A stretch of 42,225 bases of DNA from Georgenia satyanarayanai. Its GTDB lineage: Bacteria; Actinomycetota; Actinomycetes; Actinomycetales; Actinomycetaceae. The DNA lies in assembly GCF_009193135.1 (NCBI RefSeq), contig NZ_VUKC01000022.1, forward strand, positions 1-42,225. Reading direction: 5' to 3'. Under the pieces are notes generated by a model. That model was not told the origin of the DNA and made no database searches. It saw nothing but the letters and a program-made list of their open reading frames with translations. Both the position numbers and the translations under genes were made by a program. This document shows, piece after piece, positions 32,446 to 41,042 of the stretch (position 1 is the first letter of the stretch; each line of letters opens with the position of its first letter).

Positions 32446-33960
32446 ATGGCTGACTACGTCCTCGCCATCGACCAGGGCACGACCAGCACCCGCGCGATCG
32501 TCTTCGACCACGCGGGCACCGTGCACTCCACCGGGCAGATGGAGCACGAGCAGATCTTCCCGCGCGCCGGCTGGGTGGAGCACGACCCCGTCGAGATCTG
32601 GCGCAACGTCCGGGAGGTCGTGAGCCTGGCGCTGTCCCGCGGCGACCTCACCCACCGCAACCTCGCCGCCGTCGGCATCACCAACCAGCGTGAGACCACC
32701 GTCGTGTGGGAGAAGAGCACGGGCAAGCCCGTCTACAACGCGATCGTCTGGCAGGACACCCGCACCCAGAAGATCGTCGACGAGCTCGCCGGTGACGAGG
32801 GGCCGGAGAAGTACAAGAAGACCGTGGGCCTGCCCCTCGCCACGTACTTCGCCGGGCCGAAGGTCAAGTGGATCCTCGACAACGTCGACGGCGCCCGGGA
32901 GAAGGCCGAGGCCGGCGAGCTGCTCTTCGGCACCACCGACTCGTGGGTGCTGTGGAACATGACCGGCGGGCCCAACGGCGGCGTCCACGTCACCGACGTC
33001 ACCAACGCCTCGCGCACCATGCTCATGAACATCGACTCGCTCACCTGGAACGAGGACATCGCGGCGGACATGGGCATCCCCCTGTCGATGCTCCCCGAGA
33101 TCCGCTCCTCCTCCGAGGTCTACGGCGAGGGCCGTGAGGGCGGCTTCGTGCCCGGCGTGCCGATCGCCGGCATCCTCGGTGACCAGCAGGCGGCGACCTT
33201 CGGGCAGGCGGCCTTCGAGGTCGGCAGCGCGAAGAACACCTACGGCACCGGCAACTTCCTGCTCCTCAACACCGGGACCGAGCTCGTCCACAGCGAGAAC
33301 GGGCTGCTCACCACGGTCGGCTACAAGATCGGTGACCAGCCGCAGGTGTACTGCCTCGAGGGCTCGATCGCCGTCACCGGCTCCCTCGTGCAGTGGCTTC
33401 GCGACAACCTCGGGATCATCAAGAGTGCTCCCGAGATCGAGGAGCTCGCCGCGACGGTGGACGACAACGGCGGGGCGTACTTCGTCCCGGCGTTCTCCGG
33501 CCTCTTCGCGCCGTACTGGCGGTCCGACGCGCGTGGCGCGCTCGTCGGCCTCACCCGGTACGTCAACAAGGGCCACATCGCGCGGGCCGTCCTCGAGGCG
33601 ACGGCCTACCAGTCCCGCGAGGTCGTCGACGCGATGAACGCCGACTCCGGGGTGGACCTCAAGGAGCTCAAGGTCGACGGCGGCATGGTCGCCAACGAGC
33701 AGCTCATGCAGTTCCAGGCCGACATCCTCGGCGTCGACGTCGTGCGGCCGAAGGTCACCGAGACGACGGCGCTCGGCGCCGCCTACGCCGCCGGCATCGC
33801 GGTCGGCTTCTGGAACGGTGAGCAGGACGTCGTCGACAACTGGGGTGAGGACAAGCGCTGGACCCCGTCGATGGACGAGGCCGAGCGCGAGCGCCTGTAC
33901 CGCAACTGGAAGAAGGCCGTGACGAAGACCTTCGACTGGGTCGACGAGGACGTCGACTGA
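32446..33960 (+). CDS. glpK: Glycerol kinase
   Basis: A 504-residue FGGY-family kinase that phosphorylates glycerol with ATP. The N terminus is [20 protein letters not shown]. Substrate residues lie in [14 protein letters not shown] and [10 protein letters not shown], and the C-terminal ATP-binding domain has [20 protein letters not shown] and [16 protein letters not shown]. Length is standard. An AACGAAAGGA ribosome site precedes the ATG. It traps glycerol brought in by GlpF for GlpD. Confidence 0.97.
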
Positions 33961-33975
33961 CCCGACGCCCACCCG

Positions 33976-34013
33976 GGACGGGGCCACTGCCGCAGCCGGC
34001 AGTGGCCCCGTCC
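33976..34013 (+). terminator. Terminator of the glp operon
   Basis: A 16-bp perfect stem, with GACGGGGCCACTGCC at 33977-33991 and its complement at 33998-34012, and a 6-nt loop. It begins 16 nt past the glpK stop. Confidence 0.85.
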
Positions 34014-34044
34014 GTCGTTCGGGGGCGCTGGGCTGGACGTGACA

Positions 34045-34079
34045 CCGGGGCCCGTCCCACGGGCTGGGACGGGCCCCGG
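34045..34079. terminator. Second hairpin, insulator between glp and the next operon
   Basis: CCGGGGCCCGTCCCA (34045-34059) pairs perfectly with TGGGACGGGCCCCGG (34065-34079), loop of 5 nt. Lying just before the next promoter, it likely stops any read-through from glpK. Confidence 0.75.
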
Positions 34080-34086
34080 GAGGTGG

Positions 34087-34115
34087 TTGGACCTTCAACC
34101 GGCGTGGCGTAGCGT
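34087..34115 (+). promoter_or_regulatory. Promoter of the leader-peptide operon
   Basis: TTGGAC (34087-34092), a 17-nt spacer and TAGCGT (34110-34115) give a good promoter. GGTTG (34085-34089) and CAACC (34096-34100) form an inverted repeat around the -35, a possible operator. The transcript would start near 34122, about 60 nt before the leader peptide. Confidence 0.6.
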
Positions 34116-34183
34116 CGTCGACGTCGGGGCACGCACCGTGCCCGAACGATCGCGGCGCCCGCCGCGAGCTGGGGAGGACCACC

Positions 34184-34282
34184 ATGACCGTGCACACGAG
34201 TGTCAGGCCGCACCTCGCGCCGAGCACCACCGTGTCCATGTGTCGGCGCGCCGCGGCGTGCATGTGTTGTTGTCCTGCCTGA
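34184..34282 (+). CDS. Cysteine-rich leader peptide (32 residues), candidate attenuator
   Basis: An ATG with a perfect GGGAGG site 7 nt upstream opens a 32-codon frame that ends SMCRRAAACMCCCPA. Five of the last 13 residues are Cys, four of them coded by TGT, a codon that is uncommon in DNA this GC-rich. The frame lies between a good promoter and a gene 165 nt downstream, and is followed by alternative RNA stems. Known cysteine-responsive leader peptides of actinobacteria work by ribosome stalling at Cys codons when Cys-tRNA is scarce. This peptide does not match the common RRHVDL-type leaders I know, so it may be a different class. Confidence 0.65.
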   Translation: MTVHTSVRPHLAPSTTVSMCRRAAACMCCCPA

Positions 34283-34294
34283 GGCGTTGATCCC

Positions 34295-34389
34295 GCGGGC
34301 CGCTGAGCCCGCCTCCGCCCACGAGCGTCGCCCGCTGCGGCGCTGACCTCCCGTCGTCCCCCGGCCGTGCGCACGCCACCGCCGGGAGG
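34295..34389 (+). promoter_or_regulatory. Candidate attenuator with mutually exclusive stems
   Basis: After the leader stop, GCGGGC (34295-34300) can pair with GCCCGC (34307-34312). Further on CCTCCCG (34347-34353) can pair with CGGGAGG (34383-34389), while CCCGGC (34360-34365) can pair with GCCGGG (34381-34386). The last two share one arm and cannot form together. The GGGAGG in that arm also resembles a ribosome site. There is no U tract. Confidence 0.4.
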
Positions 34390-34446
34390 AGAGCGCGGGA
34401 GCGCACCCCTACATGCTGCGGCGCTGCCGCGTACCCAGGAGCACCC

Positions 34447-35766
34447 GTGACCACCACCGCCCACCGCCCGCCCACCGCCCGCGAGGACCTCGTCGGCGCC
34501 CTCGCCGAGCTCGACCCGGCCACGGCCGCGGCCCGCCTGGCCAAGCCCGAGGCCGTCGAGCACACCCAGCGCGCCCACGACCACCTCTTCACCGACCCTG
34601 GCCGCCTGTCCCCCGCGCTGCGCCGGGCGCTGGCTGCGCGCGTCGCCGAGCAGCACGGCGCGCCGGTGCTCGCGCAGGAGCACCGGCGCCACGACCCGGT
34701 CGACCTCACCGTCGCCACCGCCGACGAGTCCGTCGCCGCGCTCGTGCGTCACGCGGACCTCCTGTCCCTCGCGCCCGCGGTCGTCACCCCCGACGACGTC
34801 GCCGCGCTCACCGCCGTCGGCCTCGACGCGGACGGCATCGTCCTCCTGTCCCAGGTCGTCGCCGTCACCGCCTACGAGGCGCGCCTGGTCACCGGGCTAC
34901 GGCTGCTCGCCGGCCACGACGACGCCGCCACCGCGGCGCCGGCGGCGGACCTGCCCGCCCGCGACAAGTACGCCCCGGACCTCGCGCCGGGCGGGCTGCC
35001 CGTGCCCCGCGCCTACACCCGCGAGATCCTCGGCTGGCTGCCCTGGGTGGAGCCGATCCCCGCGGCGCAGCTGACCGACGAGCACCGCGCCGCCTTCGCC
35101 GGCAAGAGCGACGGCGCCTACTTCCGTCTCCTCGCCCGCGAGACCGCCGTGCTCGCCGCCCGCACGCAGATCGACCACGCCGTCTTCCTCACCCGGGTGG
35201 GCCTGCCGCGGGCCGAGCGCGAGCTCGCCGCCGCGGTGACGAGCAAGGTCAACGACTGCATCTTCTGCGCCTCGGTCCACGCCCGGAAGGCCGCGCAGCT
35301 GAGCAGGCGCCCCGACGACGTCGACCGTCTCCTCGCCGCCGACGTCCCCCGCGGCCCCGGCTGGGCGCCGTCCGACCTGTCGGCGCTGAGCGCCGGCCAG
35401 GACGAGCGGTGGGCCGCGGTCATCGACCTCTCCGCCGCCCTGGCCGCGTCGCCGTCGCGGGCCACCGCCGCGCACGTCGACCGGCTGCGCGCGCTCGGCC
35501 TCGAGCCCGTGGAGCTCGTCGACCTCGTCGCCTCGGTCGCGTTCTTCTCCTGGGCCAACCGCCTCATGCTCACCCTCGGCGAGCCCCACCTCCCCGCCGG
35601 CACCCCCACCCCTCCCGCCGACAGCCCACTTCTCGCCGACAGCCGAGTTGTCGCCCACAGCCGACCTGTCGCCCACAGCCGACCTGTCGCCGACAGCCGA
35701 CCTGTCGCCGACAGCCGAGTTACCGACGACAGCCGAGCTACCGACACCACCGGAGAGACCCGATGA
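34447..35766 (+). CDS. Fused CMD / AhpD-like alkylhydroperoxidase-domain protein
   Basis: A 439-residue protein made of two carboxymuconolactone decarboxylase (CMD)-type halves. Residues 1 to about 165 resemble the Avi_7170 CMD family and lack a CxxC. Residues about 185 to 390 resemble the Avi_7169 alkylhydroperoxidase family and hold NDCIFCASVHARKA, with Cys271, Cys274 and His278 as AhpD-type redox residues. These two families are usually separate neighbouring genes, so this is a fusion. The last 47 residues come from an 18-bp repeat array. The GTG at 34447 has AGGAG 5 nt upstream. Its stop overlaps the next start by 4 bp. A peroxide or thiol redox role is likely; the substrate is unknown. 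Confidence 0.78.
   Translation: MTTTAHRPPTAREDLVGALAELDPATAAARLAKPEAVEHTQRAHDHLFTDPGRLSPALRRALAARVAEQHGAPVLAQEHRRHDPVDLTVATADESVAALVRHADLLSLAPAVVTPDDVAALTAVGLDADGIVLLSQVVAVTAYEARLVTGLRLLAGHDDAATAAPAADLPARDKYAPDLAPGGLPVPRAYTREILGWLPWVEPIPAAQLTDEHRAAFAGKSDGAYFRLLARETAVLAARTQIDHAVFLTRVGLPRAERELAAAVTSKVNDCIFCASVHARKAAQLSRRPDDVDRLLAADVPRGPGWAPSDLSALSAGQDERWAAVIDLSAALAASPSRATAAHVDRLRALGLEPVELVDLVASVAFFSWANRLMLTLGEPHLPAGTPTPPADSPLLADSRVVAHSRPVAHSRPVADSRPVADSRVTDDSRATDTTGETR
35616..35741 (+). repeat. 18-bp repeat array, 7 units, at the 3' end of the CMD/AhpD gene
   Basis: Seven perfect-length units of 18 bp (consensus CGCCGACAGCCGACCTGT) run without interruption and code for (A/D)-(D/H)-S-R-x-x hexapeptides. 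The array is preceded by CCCTCC and ends 21 bp before the next start codon. Confidence 0.95.
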
Positions 35767-36863
35767 CCCGCACCACCCGCACCGCCGCCGCCCTCCTCGC
35801 CTCGGCCCTCACGCTGGCGGCCTGCGGCCAGGTCGAGGTCGCCGGCTCCGGCGACGCCGCCGACCCCGCCGCCACCACCGGCGCGACCGACGGCACCGGC
35901 GAGATCACCGTCGTCGACGACCAGGACCGCGAGGTGACGATCGAGGGCCCGGTGGAGCGCGCCGTCGTCGCCCTGTCCTACAACAACGAGTTCGTCGAGG
36001 CGATCGGCGCGGGCGACCGGGTCGTCGGCGTCGACCGCGGCACCGTGCAGCGCGCTCCCTACCTCGGGCTCACCGAGGAGGACGTCGTCGGGGAGAGCAT
36101 CGGCGAGCTCAACTACGAGGCGATCGTCGCCCTCGACCCGGACGTCGCGATCATCCCCCGCAACGGTGCCTGGCAGGAGGCGGCGGAGCGGCTCGAGGAA
36201 TTCGACATCCCGGTCGTCGTCGTCACGTCGTGGGACGTCGACGTCTTCGCGGAGACGATCGACCTGCTCGGAGAGGTCTTCGACGAGCCGGAGGGCGCGC
36301 AGGCCGTGCGCGACTTCCACGACGAGATCGTCACCGCCGTCGAGGACAGCGTCGCGGGCCTCGAGCCCGTCCCGGTGTACTGGGAGACCGACCAGCCCTA
36401 CATCACCGCCCTGCCCGGCTCCGGCTTCGACCAGGTCATCACCGGCGCCGGCGGCACGAACGTCTTCGGCGACATCACCGGCGGCGACGCCCAGCACGAG
36501 ATCACCGTCGACCCGGCCGCCGTCGTCGAGCGGGACCCGGCCGTCGTCGTCCACGAGATGCCGCCCTCGGCCGAGCCGTACCCCGCCGGCGCGGTCGCCG
36601 AGATCGTCACCGGGATCCCCGCGCGGCCGGGCTGGTCCGGGATCGGCGCCGTCGAGGACGGTGAGGTCTACGTGACGAACGGGTGGGCGACGTCGGGGCT
36701 CGCCAAGGCGATCGCCACCGCCTACCTCGCCACCTGGCTGCACCCGGAGGCGACGGCCGACCTCGACCCGGCCGGCTACCTCGAGCGCTGGGCCACCGAG
36801 TTCCAGGGCGTCTCCGACTACCCGGGCGAGGACGCCTACGTCTCCGCCGGGGGCGGGCAGTGA
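35763..36863 (+). CDS. FecB/BtuF-like ABC transporter substrate-binding lipoprotein
   Basis: A 366-residue exported lipoprotein with the lipobox LTLAACGQV. The mature part has ITVVDDQDREVTIEGPVERA, the usual N-terminal strand of iron-siderophore and cobalamin binding proteins, then two lobes joined by a long helix (ETIDLLGEVFDEPEGAQAV). NPYITALPG-type and GGTNVFGDI segments are typical of Peripla_BP_2. It should deliver a chelate or similar ligand to the FecCD/FecE pair encoded next. The ligand is not known; iron-siderophore is the default guess. Confidence 0.88.
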   Translation: MTRTTRTAAALLASALTLAACGQVEVAGSGDAADPAATTGATDGTGEITVVDDQDREVTIEGPVERAVVALSYNNEFVEAIGAGDRVVGVDRGTVQRAPYLGLTEEDVVGESIGELNYEAIVALDPDVAIIPRNGAWQEAAERLEEFDIPVVVVTSWDVDVFAETIDLLGEVFDEPEGAQAVRDFHDEIVTAVEDSVAGLEPVPVYWETDQPYITALPGSGFDQVITGAGGTNVFGDITGGDAQHEITVDPAAVVERDPAVVVHEMPPSAEPYPAGAVAEIVTGIPARPGWSGIGAVEDGEVYVTNGWATSGLAKAIATAYLATWLHPEATADLDPAGYLERWATEFQGVSDYPGEDAYVSAGGGQ

Positions 36864-37987
36864 CCGCCCGTACCGCCGCCCGCCCTCCCGCCGACAGCCG
36901 ACTTACCGCCGACAGCCGACCTACCGACGCCGGCCCGGGTCCCCGCGGCCTGCGGCGGGCGCTGGGCAACCACCGCCTGCTCGTGCTCGTCGTGTCGGTG
37001 GTGGTGACCGTCGCCGTCGTCGCCGGCTCGACGGCGGTGGGCACCTCCGGGGTGACCGTCGCGGACGCGATGCGCATCCTGTGGCTGCGCGTGGCCGGCG
37101 GGACCATCGAGCCGGAGTTCGTCCAGTCCTACGCGATCGTCGCCGACCTGCGCCTGCCCCGCGCGCTGCTGGCCCTGGCCGCCGGCGCCGCACTGTCGGT
37201 GGCCGGCGCCGTCATGCAGGGCCTGCTGCGCAACCCGCTCGTCAGCCCCTTCACCCTCGGGGTCTCCCCGGCGGCGGCCTTCGGCGCGTCGCTGGCGATC
37301 CTCCTCGGCGGCGGCGGGGTGGCCTCGTCCAACCCGCTCGTCATCCTCTCCGCGCTCGCCTGCGCGGGGGTCGTGACGATGCTCGTCCTCGGCCTCGCCT
37401 CCGCGCGGAAGATGGCGGTGGCGACGCTGCTGCTCCTCGGCATCGCCGTCACCCAGCTCTTCGAGGCGCTGACCGCCGGCCTGCAGTACATCGCCAACGA
37501 GAACACCCTCCAGGCGATCGTGCGCTGGACCCTCGGCTCGGTCAACGACGCGTCGTGGACCGAGGTCCGGGTGATGGGCGCCGTCGTCGTCGTGCTCCTC
37601 CCGCTGCTCCTGTGGTTCGCCAAGGACATGAACGCGATCGCCTTCGCCGGCGACGACGCCGCCCGCTCCCTCGGCGTCAACGTCACCGTCGTGCGGGTCG
37701 GGCTCATCCTCGTGTCGGTGCTGCTCGCGTCCGTCGCGGTGTCGCTGTGCGGGGTCATCGGCTTCGTCGGGCTCGTCGGGCCGCACATCGCCCGGCTCAT
37801 CATCGGCGCCAACCACCAGTACCTGCTGCCGATGTCGGCGCTGTCGGGTGGCGTGCTCCTCGTCGCGGCGGACACGATCGGGCGCACGGTCGTGGCGCCG
37901 TCGGTCGTGCCCGTGGGGATCGTCGTCGCGATGCTCGGCGCGCCCGTCTTCATCTACCTCATCATGACGCGGAGGGCCTCGAAGTGA
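36860..37987 (+). CDS. FecCD family ABC transporter permease
   Basis: A 375-residue permease with about ten membrane helices. LRLPRALLALAAGAALSVAG, GLLRNPLVSPFTLGVSPAAA, a GSVNDASW loop, SLGVNVTVVRVGLILVS and the ATPase-contact CGVIGFVGLVGPHIARL are FecCD hallmarks. Only one permease gene is present, so it should form a homodimer. The GTG start overlaps the upstream stop by 4 bp. The cytoplasmic N terminus includes two repeat-derived hexapeptides (ADSRLTADSRPT), absent from normal family members. Confidence 0.92.
   Translation: MTARTAARPPADSRLTADSRPTDAGPGPRGLRRALGNHRLLVLVVSVVVTVAVVAGSTAVGTSGVTVADAMRILWLRVAGGTIEPEFVQSYAIVADLRLPRALLALAAGAALSVAGAVMQGLLRNPLVSPFTLGVSPAAAFGASLAILLGGGGVASSNPLVILSALACAGVVTMLVLGLASARKMAVATLLLLGIAVTQLFEALTAGLQYIANENTLQAIVRWTLGSVNDASWTEVRVMGAVVVVLLPLLLWFAKDMNAIAFAGDDAARSLGVNVTVVRVGLILVSVLLASVAVSLCGVIGFVGLVGPHIARLIIGANHQYLLPMSALSGGVLLVAADTIGRTVVAPSVVPVGIVVAMLGAPVFIYLIMTRRASK
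36889..36924 (+). repeat. 18-bp repeat array, 2 units, at the 5' end of the permease gene
   Basis: Two units, CGCCGACAGCCGACTTAC and one C-for-T variant, begin 29 bp after the start codon and are preceded by CCCTCC. They code for ADSRLT and ADSRPT. Confidence 0.9.
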
Positions 37988-38826
37988 CTGCAGTCCAGGA
38001 CCGGGCGACGACGGTGGCCTCGGCTGCCGTGGCCGCGGCGCCACCCGCCGCGCTGAGCATCCGCGACGTCGCGTTCGCCTACGGCAGGCACCAGGTGCTG
38101 CGCGGCATCGACCTCGACGTCGCGGCGGGGACGCTGTGCGCGCTGCTCGGGCCCAACGGCTCGGGCAAGTCGACGCTGACGAAGATCCTCGCCGGCGTGC
38201 TGCGGACGAAGCAGGGCGCGGTACGGCTCGGGGACCGCGACCTGCTGGCGATGAAGCCACGCGAGCGGGCCAAGGTCGTGGCCTACGTGCCGCAGTCCAG
38301 CGAGGTGCCCTTCGAGCTCACCGTCCGCGAGGCCGTGACGCTGGGCCGGACCCCGCACATGGGCATGCGGCCCTCGGCCGAGGACCTGGCGGTGGTCGAG
38401 GACTCGATCGCGCGGCTCGGGCTGGCCGAGCTCGCCGAGCGGCGGCTCTCGGACATGTCCGGCGGGCAGGCCCAGCGCGTGCTCATCGCCCGGGCGCTGG
38501 CCCAGCGGCCGCGGGTGCTGCTGCTCGACGAGCCGACCTCCGCCCTCGACCTGCGCTACCAGGTGGAGACACTGCAGATCGTGCGACAGGTGGCGCGCGA
38601 GGAGGGGGTCGCGGCGCTCATCGCGATCCACGACCTCAACCACGCGGCGACCTTCTGCCAGCAGGTCGTGCTCCTCAGCGGCGGCCGGCTCGTGGCCGAC
38701 GGCCCCGCGCCCGAGGCCTACGACGCCGAGCTGCTCGGTGAGGTCTACGGGCTGCCGGTCGAGGTCCTCCACGACGCCGGCCAGACCCAGGTCCGCCCCG
38801 TTCTGGCCAAGGACGCCCTCGCATGA
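37984..38826 (+). CDS. FecE-like ABC transporter ATP-binding protein
   Basis: A 280-residue ATPase. Walker A is GPNGSGKSTLTKIL, the Q-loop is YVPQSSEVPF, the signature is DMSGGQAQRVLIARAL, Walker B is VLLLDEPTSALDL and the H-loop is IAIHDLNHAA. This matches iron-chelate and cobalamin importers. The GTG overlaps the permease stop by 4 bp, and its stop overlaps the next ATG. Confidence 0.93.
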   Translation: MTAVQDRATTVASAAVAAAPPAALSIRDVAFAYGRHQVLRGIDLDVAAGTLCALLGPNGSGKSTLTKILAGVLRTKQGAVRLGDRDLLAMKPRERAKVVAYVPQSSEVPFELTVREAVTLGRTPHMGMRPSAEDLAVVEDSIARLGLAELAERRLSDMSGGQAQRVLIARALAQRPRVLLLDEPTSALDLRYQVETLQIVRQVAREEGVAALIAIHDLNHAATFCQQVVLLSGGRLVADGPAPEAYDAELLGEVYGLPVEVLHDAGQTQVRPVLAKDALA

Positions 38827-41042
38827 CCCAGTCCCACACCCCCTCCCCCGCCGACAGCCGACTTGTCACCGACAGCCGACTTCCCGCCGACAGCCGACTT
38901 ACCGCCGACAGCCGACTTCCCGCCGACAGCCGACTTCCCGCCGACAGCCGACTTCCCGCCGACAGCCGACTTACCGACGACAGCCGACTTACCGACGACG
39001 ACGACGCCGACGTCGACCTCGTCATCGTCGGTGGCGGCCCGCGTGCGGTGTCCGTCGTCGAACGGCTCACGGCTCGGGGCACGTCGGAGCGGCCGCTGCG
39101 GGTCGTCGTCGTCGACCGCTTCGAGGTGGGCGCCGGCGCCACCTGGCGCACGGACCAGAACCCGCAGCTGCTCAACAACACCTACAGCGCACACACGACG
39201 ATCTACCCGGACGACTCCACCCCGATGTCCGGACCGGTGACGCCCGGGCCGAACCTCGTCGAATGGGCACGCGACGTGGTCGCCGGGCTCCCGCGCACGA
39301 CGGCGCCGCCGTCCGCCGGCTGGAGCGCTGGCCCCCGGCCGGACTGGGTCGCCGAGGAGGCCGCCGCCGTCCAGCCGTGGTCCTACCCGACCCGACGCCT
39401 GCAGGGCGTCTACTTCCGCGAGCAGCTCGAGGCGATCCTCGCCCGTGGCGGCGTGGAGCTGACCGCGGTCGTGGGCACCGTCGTCGACATCGAGGCGTCG
39501 ACAGGTCAGCTCCCGGCGACAAGTCAGCTCTCGGCGACAAGTCAGCTCTCGGCGACAAGTCGGCTCTCGGCGGGAGGGCGAGCGGGAGAGGGAGAGGGGG
39601 CGGCAGCGGCGGCGGCGGGGACGCGCGTCGTGCGGCTCGCGGACGGGCGGGGGTTCTCCGCAGCCGCCGTCGTCCTCGCCCAGGGGATGATCCAGGCCGG
39701 GCGCTCCCGGCAGACCGAGGAGCGCGTCGCCGCCGCCGAGGACCAGGGGCTCGTCTACGTCGAGCCGGGCATGCCCGCCGAGCGGGACTGGGACGCCGTG
39801 CCGGGCGGGCAGGACGTCGTCGTCGCCGGGCTCGGGGCGAACTTCTTCGACGTCGTCGCGGTCCTCACCGCCGGCCGCGGAGGCCGCTTCGTCCCCGCCG
39901 GCTCCCCCTTCGACCTCACCTACCTGCCCTCGGGGCGGGAGCCGCGGCTGCTCGTCGGCTCGCGCCGCGGGCTGCCCTACCGCTCGAAGTCCTGGTACGG
40001 CGGCCTCCCACCGCGTTACGCGCCGCGGCTGGCCACCCCCGAGTGGTTCGCGGCCGCCGCGAGGATCCCCGACCAGGACTTCACCCGCGACGTCTGGCCC
40101 CAGCTCGCCCGCGAACTCGTCGTCGCGCACCTCACCACGCTCCTGCGCCACCACCCCGCCACCGTTCCCACGCTCACCGCCGACGACGGCGAGCTCCCGG
40201 CGGTCCTGCTCGCCCGGATCGCGGCCGCGGACGTGACCGAGCTGGACGACCTCGTCCGGGACGTCGTCGTCGATCCGGCCCGCCGGCTCGAGGTCGACCG
40301 CCTCGACCGGCCCGATGTCCGCCTCCCGTCACCCGAGGCGTGGCGGGCGTGGACCGAGCGCTGGGTCGCGGCGGAGCACGAGTCGATCACCCGGCCGCTC
40401 GCCAGCCCGCGCGCGGAGGTCAACCGGGCGATGGCCCTGCTGCGCGGGCAGGTCGCCGGGCTCGTGCGCGCCGGAGCGATCCACCCGGCGTCGGCCATCC
40501 GCGACGTCAACGGCTGGTTCGGTGCGCTCGGCCTCGCGCTGGCGTCCGGCCCGCCGCCGGAGCGCACGGCGCAGCTGCTCGCGCTCGTCCGGGCCGGCGT
40601 CGTCGAGCTTCTCGGCGAGGGGCTCTCCGTCACCGTGGAGCGCGGGCGCTTCGTCGCCCGCTCCCAGGTGATCGGGCGCGAGCACCGGGTGCGGACCGTC
40701 GTCGAGACCCGCATGTCCAAGGGCCACGCCGACGTCACCGACGACCCGCTGCTGCGCTCGCTCCTCGACTCCGGCCGCGCCCGCCTCCACGCGCGCACCG
40801 GCCCCGACGGCACGGTGGCCGCGACGCGGACCCTGGACGTGACACCCGAGGACTTCCACCTCCTCGACGCCGCGGGCCGACCCGACCCCCGGGTCGTCGT
40901 CATCGGCATCCCGGCCGGTGACGTGCAGCCGGGCTCGGCGATCGGGGCGACGCCCGGGGTGCCCTCGCCGCTCATCTCCGGCGCCGACCGGGCCGCCGCG
41001 CGGGTGCTTGCACTGGTGAGGGAGCCGGTGCCGGTCGGCTGA
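38823..41042 (+). CDS. FAD/NAD(P)-binding protein with repeat-derived inserts
   Basis: A 739-residue soluble flavoprotein-like enzyme of the FAD-NAD(P)-binding (NAD_binding_9) type. The dinucleotide fold is VDLVIVGGGPRAVSVVERL near residue 60. NNTYSAHTTIYPDDSTPMSG, a second nucleotide-binding part AVVLAQGMIQAGRS, and VVAGLGANFFDVVAVLTAGR are visible. The N terminus is a run of eight repeat hexapeptides (ADSRLP/T), and a reversed four-unit array interrupts the protein near residues 226-250 (TSQLSA repeats). Members of this family are found with metallophore or amino-acid loci but have no firm function. As the last gene of the operon, it probably oxidises or reduces the imported ligand (inference). 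Confidence 0.78.
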   Translation: MTQSHTPSPADSRLVTDSRLPADSRLTADSRLPADSRLPADSRLPADSRLTDDSRLTDDDDADVDLVIVGGGPRAVSVVERLTARGTSERPLRVVVVDRFEVGAGATWRTDQNPQLLNNTYSAHTTIYPDDSTPMSGPVTPGPNLVEWARDVVAGLPRTTAPPSAGWSAGPRPDWVAEEAAAVQPWSYPTRRLQGVYFREQLEAILARGGVELTAVVGTVVDIEASTGQLPATSQLSATSQLSATSRLSAGGRAGEGEGAAAAAAGTRVVRLADGRGFSAAAVVLAQGMIQAGRSRQTEERVAAAEDQGLVYVEPGMPAERDWDAVPGGQDVVVAGLGANFFDVVAVLTAGRGGRFVPAGSPFDLTYLPSGREPRLLVGSRRGLPYRSKSWYGGLPPRYAPRLATPEWFAAAARIPDQDFTRDVWPQLARELVVAHLTTLLRHHPATVPTLTADDGELPAVLLARIAAADVTELDDLVRDVVVDPARRLEVDRLDRPDVRLPSPEAWRAWTERWVAAEHESITRPLASPRAEVNRAMALLRGQVAGLVRAGAIHPASAIRDVNGWFGALGLALASGPPPERTAQLLALVRAGVVELLGEGLSVTVERGRFVARSQVIGREHRVRTVVETRMSKGHADVTDDPLLRSLLDSGRARLHARTGPDGTVAATRTLDVTPEDFHLLDAAGRPDPRVVVIGIPAGDVQPGSAIGATPGVPSPLISGADRAAARVLALVREPVPVG
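38849..38992 (+). repeat. 18-bp repeat array, 8 units, at the 5' end of the flavoprotein gene
   Basis: Eight 18-bp units, consensus CGCCGACAGCCGACTTCC, starting 26 bp after the ATG. They code for (P/T)-(A/D)-D-S-R-L. No alternative start codon lies between the array and the nucleotide-binding fold, so it must be translated. Confidence 0.95.
39500..39571 (-). repeat. 18-bp repeat array, 4 units, in reverse orientation inside the flavoprotein gene
   Basis: Four units of GACAAGTCAGCTCTCGGC type, the complement of the other arrays, followed by GGGAGGGCGAG, the mirror of the CCCTCCC boundary. Read by the gene they give Thr-Ser-Gln-Leu-Ser-Ala repeats. Confidence 0.93.

Follow-up and report, generated by a model that had tools for sequence, protein, structure and literature searches.

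What does a translating ribosome read in a short, cysteine-rich frame placed ahead of an operon, and how could this reading set the expression of the genes behind it? The question is raised by a locus of Georgenia satyanarayanai (contig NZ_VUKC01000022.1, positions 1 to 42,225 of the forward strand; this whole stretch of 42,225 nt is called the window), in which a leader open reading frame (ORF) of 32 codons at 34184-34282 on the forward strand, translated as MTVHTSVRPHLAPSTTVSMCRRAAACMCCCPA and then a stop, lies 164 nt upstream of a five-gene operon. The reading favoured here, and considered reasonably probable, is that a leader peptide of cysteine codons sets the expression of a sulfur-acquisition operon and that transcription in the spacer between them is most likely terminated by Rho. 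Judged from the sequence, the leader is likely to be cysteine-responsive.

The leader frame and the operon behind it

The initial annotation had described a 32-codon frame with a ribosome site and five cysteines, three of them consecutive and four written as TGT, standing between a strong promoter and a coupled operon. The frame is borne out by the sequence, with cysteines at positions 20, 26 and 28-30 (n = 5) encoded by four TGT and one TGC. The promoter stands in part: its -35 element, spacer and -10 element are present and kept in six of six loci, but a strict sigma-70 scan of the window reported no promoter at the leader. The start region contains the following features.

34085-34100 (+): dyad GGTTG-N6-CAACC over the -35 element, a possible regulator site or a coincidence (sequence and conservation)
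34087-34115 (+): predicted promoter, with -35 TTGGAC (34087-34092), a 17-nt spacer and -10 TAGCGT (34110-34115) (sequence and conservation)
34171-34179 (+): Shine-Dalgarno sequence of the leader ORF, GGGGAGGAC (GAGGA kept in six of six)
34184-34282 (+): leader ORF with a Cys run near its stop (ORF translation and peptide conservation)
34265-34273 (+): TGT TGT TGT, encoding Cys28-30, the presumed stall codons (spelling kept across six genomes)

Within the promoter, TTGG, the 17-nt spacing and TAGCGT are invariant in all six loci, and the -35 element varies in its last two bases only. The dyad over it is exact in four of the six and one base off in the others, GGTTGG and TCAA being retained throughout. 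If the predicted promoter is used, the start codon lies about 60 nt inside the transcript and, with its conserved Shine-Dalgarno sequence, does not have the form of a leaderless start. When both strands of the window were searched for Shine-Dalgarno-led ORFs of 10-60 codons containing CCC and at least five cysteines, a single place was found, and the same search returned none in 60 dinucleotide shuffles of the forward strand. The peptide matches no NCBIfam or Pfam family at E up to 1, and at its locus Rfam gives nothing above the gathering score; nine weak hits (E up to 10) are chance-like. The SAM-IV riboswitch has no match in the window, nor any at 33940-34500 with E up to 10. The upstream neighbour is glpK (confirmed by family search); between it and the leader promoter stand two 13-pair GC hairpins without U tracts (33980-34009 and 34047-34077), which are possibly the ends of the glpK transcript.

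Downstream, the five genes start at 34447 and overlap by 4 nt at all four joints (with the start codons chosen in this analysis), in agreement with the coupling described for the operon.

34437-34441 (+): Shine-Dalgarno sequence AGGAG of the first operon gene (sequence)
34447-35766 (+): CMD/alkylhydroperoxidase-domain (CMD peroxidase-like) protein; TIGR04030 just above cut-off (234.7 bits, cut-off 233.15), TIGR04029 below
35763-36863 (+): substrate-binding protein of FecB/BtuF type
36860-37987 (+): FecCD/BtuC-type permease (family matches below cut-offs)
37984-38826 (+): ABC ATPase of FecE/BtuD type (family matches below cut-offs)
38823-41042 (+): FAD/NAD(P)-binding protein (flavoenzyme), a relative of L-aspartate N-hydroxylase (8cp2)

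The only solved chain related to the flavoenzyme at E up to 1 is 8cp2 (E 6e-68), a structure named in a paper on L-aspartate N-hydroxylase (PMC10404684). The ends and the inside of the operon genes also carry an 18-bp tandem repeat encoding a PADSRL-type peptide (35616-35736, 36880-36926, 38847-38999 and 39499-39572), and the end of the first gene that contains it matches nine other places of the same genome and several in a second one (G008). This repeat is a dispersed coding minisatellite.

Conservation and codon choice of the leader

The first operon gene was searched in 151 genomes of the family, 16 of which have any match. Close orthologues (identity at least 74%) occupy six loci: one in the window, four in further genomes of its genus and one in a genome of a different genus. 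The leader peptide is found in all six, and its conservation upstream of related operons, proposed as a check in the initial annotation, is in this way established for the close orthologous loci. Within its own genus the gene occurs in five of six genomes, the one without it being 57% complete, and within the other genus in one of nine. Run against 213 family genomes, a profile of the peptide strongly matches six places (E ≤6.3e-17), each genome having a single copy and every copy lying at this operon; four further, partial matches (E 0.004-0.0065), in frames 116-161 codons long, were discarded as chance. The exact DNA of the peptide end is present in four of 396 genomes of the order, always at this locus, with G. 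subflava (G125) outside that sample.

Upstream of 12 loci scanned among the looser first-gene matches the leader is not seen (one has only ~110 nt upstream), and no Cys-run leader was found at 14 non-Georgenia loci with a first-gene homologue. Short upstream frames with scattered cysteines occur at three non-Georgenia loci (L090, L093 and L094). In the window's own genome, which has 183 TGYTGYTGY sites, 11 of the 12 listed TGTTGTTGY sites besides the leader were examined and none is leader-like, a survey that covers this spelling among the sites listed, apart from C12:121268. No Cys-run leader was found before cysK-cysE of this genome, nor does the flank scanned contain a short ORF with CC and three cysteines.

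Each leader copy has four to six cysteines, three of them consecutive in five of the six loci. The run tolerates loss, since the window's copy has replaced Cys18 by serine, leaving it one cysteine fewer, and the copy of G084 has four cysteines with at most two consecutive. Cys18, Cys26 and Cys30 are each missing in one genome, CGT standing at position 30 in one of them. Invariant residues number 14 of 32, some of them outside the Cys run.

The run is fixed at the nucleotide level: every one of its Cys codons in the six genomes (17 of 17) is TGT, against 7 TGT and 83 TGC among the background cysteine codons of 41 gene-like frames taken from the window and from four relatives, frames that were chosen by base composition and are partly orthologous among the relatives. 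Elsewhere in the leader, Cys18 and Cys26 are TGC in five of five cases each, and Cys20 is TGT in four and TGC in two. A plausible explanation of this fixation is that UGU, read by wobble, is decoded more slowly. By codon position, the variable columns of the leader number 11, 10 and 8, without the third-position excess usual under protein selection, which the CMD gene does show. Third positions of leader and CMD gene were compared in three of five pairs, with p = 0.04 (G. subflava), 0.21 and 0.80, so that the pattern is a tendency only.

SAM-IV riboswitches and homologous operons

The relation of the operon to sulfur is drawn from SAM-IV riboswitches standing before homologous operons. The order of the five genes is shared by their homologues in Actinopolymorpha alba and at five Brachybacterium loci, and a short MAG contig (L089) has the first three. 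In A. alba, a SAM-IV lies directly upstream of the five-gene operon (L086, 3752-3860; 86.8 bits, gathering score 38). A second directly precedes the CMD homologue of Marinitenerispora (L087, 3764-3872; 71.6 bits), where the comparison is limited to this gene, and a third (91.2 bits) stands directly before CMD, substrate-binding protein and permease, in order, in a genome of another family. SAM-IV is directly upstream of the first-gene homologue at three of the 15 non-Georgenia loci scanned (L086-L088, L090-L099, L101 and L007, with L089 outside the scan), the other 12 being without it. The scan found it at none of four Georgenia loci and none of five Brachybacterium loci, and the five Brachybacterium copies have neither SAM-IV nor a Cys-run leader. 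Since some distant relatives carry a SAM riboswitch at the same spot, the Georgenia leader is probably a cysteine gauge.

Start signals also vary among these relatives. At four Brachybacterium loci (L090, L092, L093 and L094) and at L089, a TAAGAT/TAAAAT box stands 7-8 nt before the operon start codon, a position that, on the sequence, suggests a leaderless start in those five loci; L088 has a Shine-Dalgarno-like GAGGAG in its place.

The window's own genome has at least one SAM-IV (150 of 1890 candidates scored), located upstream of a frame that matches the NtaA/DmoA monooxygenase family partially and below the cut-off. In the genus of G. subflava, four more distant homologues are followed by a SAM-IV on the strand of the gene; at three of these loci the frame behind it begins, by eye, much like that of the window's genome, and the fourth locus ends. 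Such a SAM-IV shortly after the distant CMD homologue, on its strand and with a frame behind it that begins like the one in the window's genome, is seen at L008, L010 and L013 (genus g22). The window's genome (G000) also contains cysK and cysE, the latter confirmed by family search. No CysD match was found in it, and the species may rely on sulfur in organic or reduced form or have another ATP sulfurylase.

Spacer RNA, proposed mechanism and meaning

In the proposed mechanism, the operon would be transcribed from its own promoter and ribosomes would initiate on the leader ORF. With ample Cys-tRNA, they would pass the UGU codons, terminate at 34280-34282 and come off the transcript; the untranslated, C-rich spacer of 164 nt would then be exposed and expression cut, most likely by Rho-dependent termination. 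With Cys-tRNA in short supply, a ribosome would wait on UGU28-30 near the stop, and more transcripts would reach the operon. This scheme builds on the ORF, the promoter, the conservation, the fixed UGU codons and the sulfur link of the operon, all supported above, and adds translation, stalling, the cysteine response and Rho as presumed steps. The spacer, which in a Rho-dependent leader of the tna type would be rich in C and poor in G, has a C/G ratio of 1.30-1.56 in six of six loci, a level reached by 4-16% of random stretches and only mildly unusual; its C-richness is weakly compatible with Rho. That a parked ribosome holds off Rho is a guess, because the distance from the leader stop to the C-richest 70 nt is about 25 nt in the window and ranges from 7 to 319 nt in the relatives. 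Besides this modest C-richness, the losses in the Cys run, the leader's missing third-position excess, the 12 distant loci lacking SAM-IV, the Brachybacterium copies with neither device and the cysK-cysE genes with no such leader found before them count against the scheme.

The initial annotation had placed the switch in spacer stems, with CGGGAGG (34383-34389) pairing with either of two upstream segments and a direct repeat offering further pairing. Folding gives the following hairpins.

34246-34261 (+): hairpin within the leader ORF, immediately 5' of the Cys run, GCGCGC-CGCG-GCGUGC (folds)
34295-34312 (+): hairpin behind the stop of the leader, GCGGGC loop GCCCGC (at least five pairs in five of five alignable spacers; not found in G. 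subflava)
34324-34344 (+): spacer hairpin whose 3' arm is most of the first direct-repeat copy (folds)
34348-34401 (+): long spacer hairpin with no U tract after it (folds; weakly preserved in L005 and not seen in G. subflava)
34418-34430 (+): short hairpin before the CMD ribosome site, holding most of the second direct-repeat copy (folds)

The direct repeat GCTGCGGCGCTG is indeed present at 34334 and 34415. It looks like two separate hairpins, since its copies sit in separate ones in the lowest-energy folds; for the first copy the consensus disagrees. The 34324-34344 hairpin appears, with changed arms, in the lowest-energy fold of five of five alignable spacers, while the consensus fold instead pairs its 3' arm with the leader ORF. 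In that consensus of five, three of 62 pairs have two-sided changes and the covariation term is unfavourable. Folded on its own, the 16-mer of the hairpin inside the leader forms six pairs in five of six loci; folds of the full length make this hairpin likely in one of six only and half-likely in another. Terminator-like calls inside the leader ORF, made of a GC hairpin followed by the UGU codons, remain an oddity: their U tract is broken by G, and termination at this point would not read cysteine. As for CGGGAGG, it has one perfect upstream partner, CCTCCCG at 34347-34353, and five other segments fit at six of seven positions with G-U allowed. 'Either of two' was therefore generous.

Three other accounts of the leader have to be weighed against Rho-dependent control. 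A classical transcription attenuator, with terminator and antiterminator stems formed by CGGGAGG and its two partners and by the direct repeat, draws on stems that are present in the window and on a highly structured spacer. CGGGAGG is nevertheless absent or altered in all five relatives, no U tract follows any spacer hairpin, a conserved intrinsic terminator was not found, and the spacer of G. subflava is not conserved, which makes this account very unlikely. In G. subflava the promoter and the peptide are kept, and the spacer of 413 nt cannot be aligned with the others; this spacer (L006/L083) contains repeats around GGGTCAGCTGAACGCCGATCA. Translational attenuation would act at a later step: a ribosome parked on the Cys codons would refold the spacer and open the first gene's ribosome site, closed in the absence of stalling. 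The consensus fold agrees with it in pairing a leader segment with a spacer hairpin arm, and in the window's copy there is strong pairing between the stretch that precedes the Cys run and the one that precedes the CMD ribosome site. Yet the pairing of the leader segment with the last 45 nt before the operon beats 95% of shuffles in one of six loci only, the window's own, and that with the mid-spacer in none of six. Nor does a stalled ribosome consistently raise the modelled accessibility of the downstream Shine-Dalgarno sequence, whose values without and with stalling are 0.60/0.56, 0.50/0.50, 0.50/0.50, 0.34/0.47, 0.45/0.48 and 0.57/0.69; a ribosome-sized mask over Cys28 shifts it by -0.04 to +0.13, and the start codon shifts either way. 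With the spacer of G. subflava unrelated as well, translational attenuation seems unlikely. Given the results on CGGGAGG, on pairing, on Shine-Dalgarno accessibility and on the G. subflava spacer, a specific conserved switch is not supported, and the CGGGAGG and direct-repeat stems in that role are rejected as not conserved, with pairing in one of six and inconsistent opening of the Shine-Dalgarno sequence.

The third account takes the cysteines as residues rather than as a gauge of Cys-tRNA: a Cys-rich nascent peptide would sense a metal ion, thiol oxidation or similar and arrest the ribosome. It would suit a transporter that resembles metal-chelate and B12 importers, and a peptide with 14 of 32 residues invariant, including ones outside the Cys run. 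Homologous operons elsewhere are under SAM-IV, however, Cys18, Cys26 and Cys30 have each been lost in one genome, and conservation extends equally to third codon positions, which sensing by the peptide alone would not require; this account is most improbable. What remains of the cysteine-sensing attenuator first proposed is its sensing half, which gains support from the peptide kept in six of six loci, the fixed TGT codons and SAM-IV at three of 15 distant loci, whereas its switching stems are not supported.

Rho-dependent control has been suggested before. Cysteine leaders were predicted by Seliverstov et al. (2005; PMC1262725) for cys operons of Mycobacterium and Propionibacterium acnes and for cbs of Bifidobacterium longum, and Rho-dependent termination was suggested there for the mycobacterial ones. 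The Georgenia leader resembles them in layout, as a short ORF before a sulfur operon in Actinobacteria, with a Cys run near its stop and no conserved terminator; its target, a CMD/FecBCD-type/flavoenzyme operon, is different. Placement of the ORF, conservation of the Cys run and lack of a conserved intrinsic terminator are all as in actinobacterial cysteine-run leaders, and the conserved, mutually exclusive terminator and antiterminator with a U tract that mark the trp type were not found. In M. smegmatis, the polycysteine, leaderless small ORFs reported as cysteine-responsive by Canestrari et al. (2020), as cited in PMC9031893, PMC9094748 and PMC13236596, similarly place consecutive Cys codons in a leader ahead of operon genes; the last of these papers, from 2026, calls their mode of action translation attenuation, a point in favour of that account here. 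Unlike these, the Georgenia leader is probably not leaderless, since it has a conserved Shine-Dalgarno sequence and a predicted 5' stretch of ~60 nt. The uORFC-8-2 motif before cysS in Rhodobacterales, as described in PMC8632094, shares tandem Cys codons in a leader ORF; it has an intrinsic terminator and mostly UGC codons, whereas at the Georgenia leader no U tract was found and the run is of UGU. The SAM-IV riboswitch (RF00634), which senses SAM by its aptamer, has no match at the Georgenia locus; in three other Actinobacteria it stands in the position of the leader, ahead of the homologous gene or operon. A literature query pairing Georgenia with leader peptide found nothing related, and one on McbR with this gene family nothing useful.

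The leader brings a new genus, a new target and a Shine-Dalgarno start to the cysteine-run leaders, and through it an importer and flavoenzyme operon, itself uncharacterised, is linked to the supply of sulfur. The most valuable new point is the SAM-IV riboswitch before the homologous operon elsewhere, as related operons under a SAM riboswitch offer a natural comparison of two RNA-level sensors of sulfur status. It may be proposed, tentatively, that a regulatory swap has taken place, in which one sulfur-acquisition operon is read by SAM through SAM-IV in some Actinobacteria and by charged tRNA-Cys through a UGU-run leader in Georgenia, UGU wobble having been selected for the sensitivity of the gauge; the operon itself, with its CMD peroxidase-like protein, FecBCD-type importer and N-hydroxylase-like flavoenzyme, would then be an undescribed route of sulfur acquisition.
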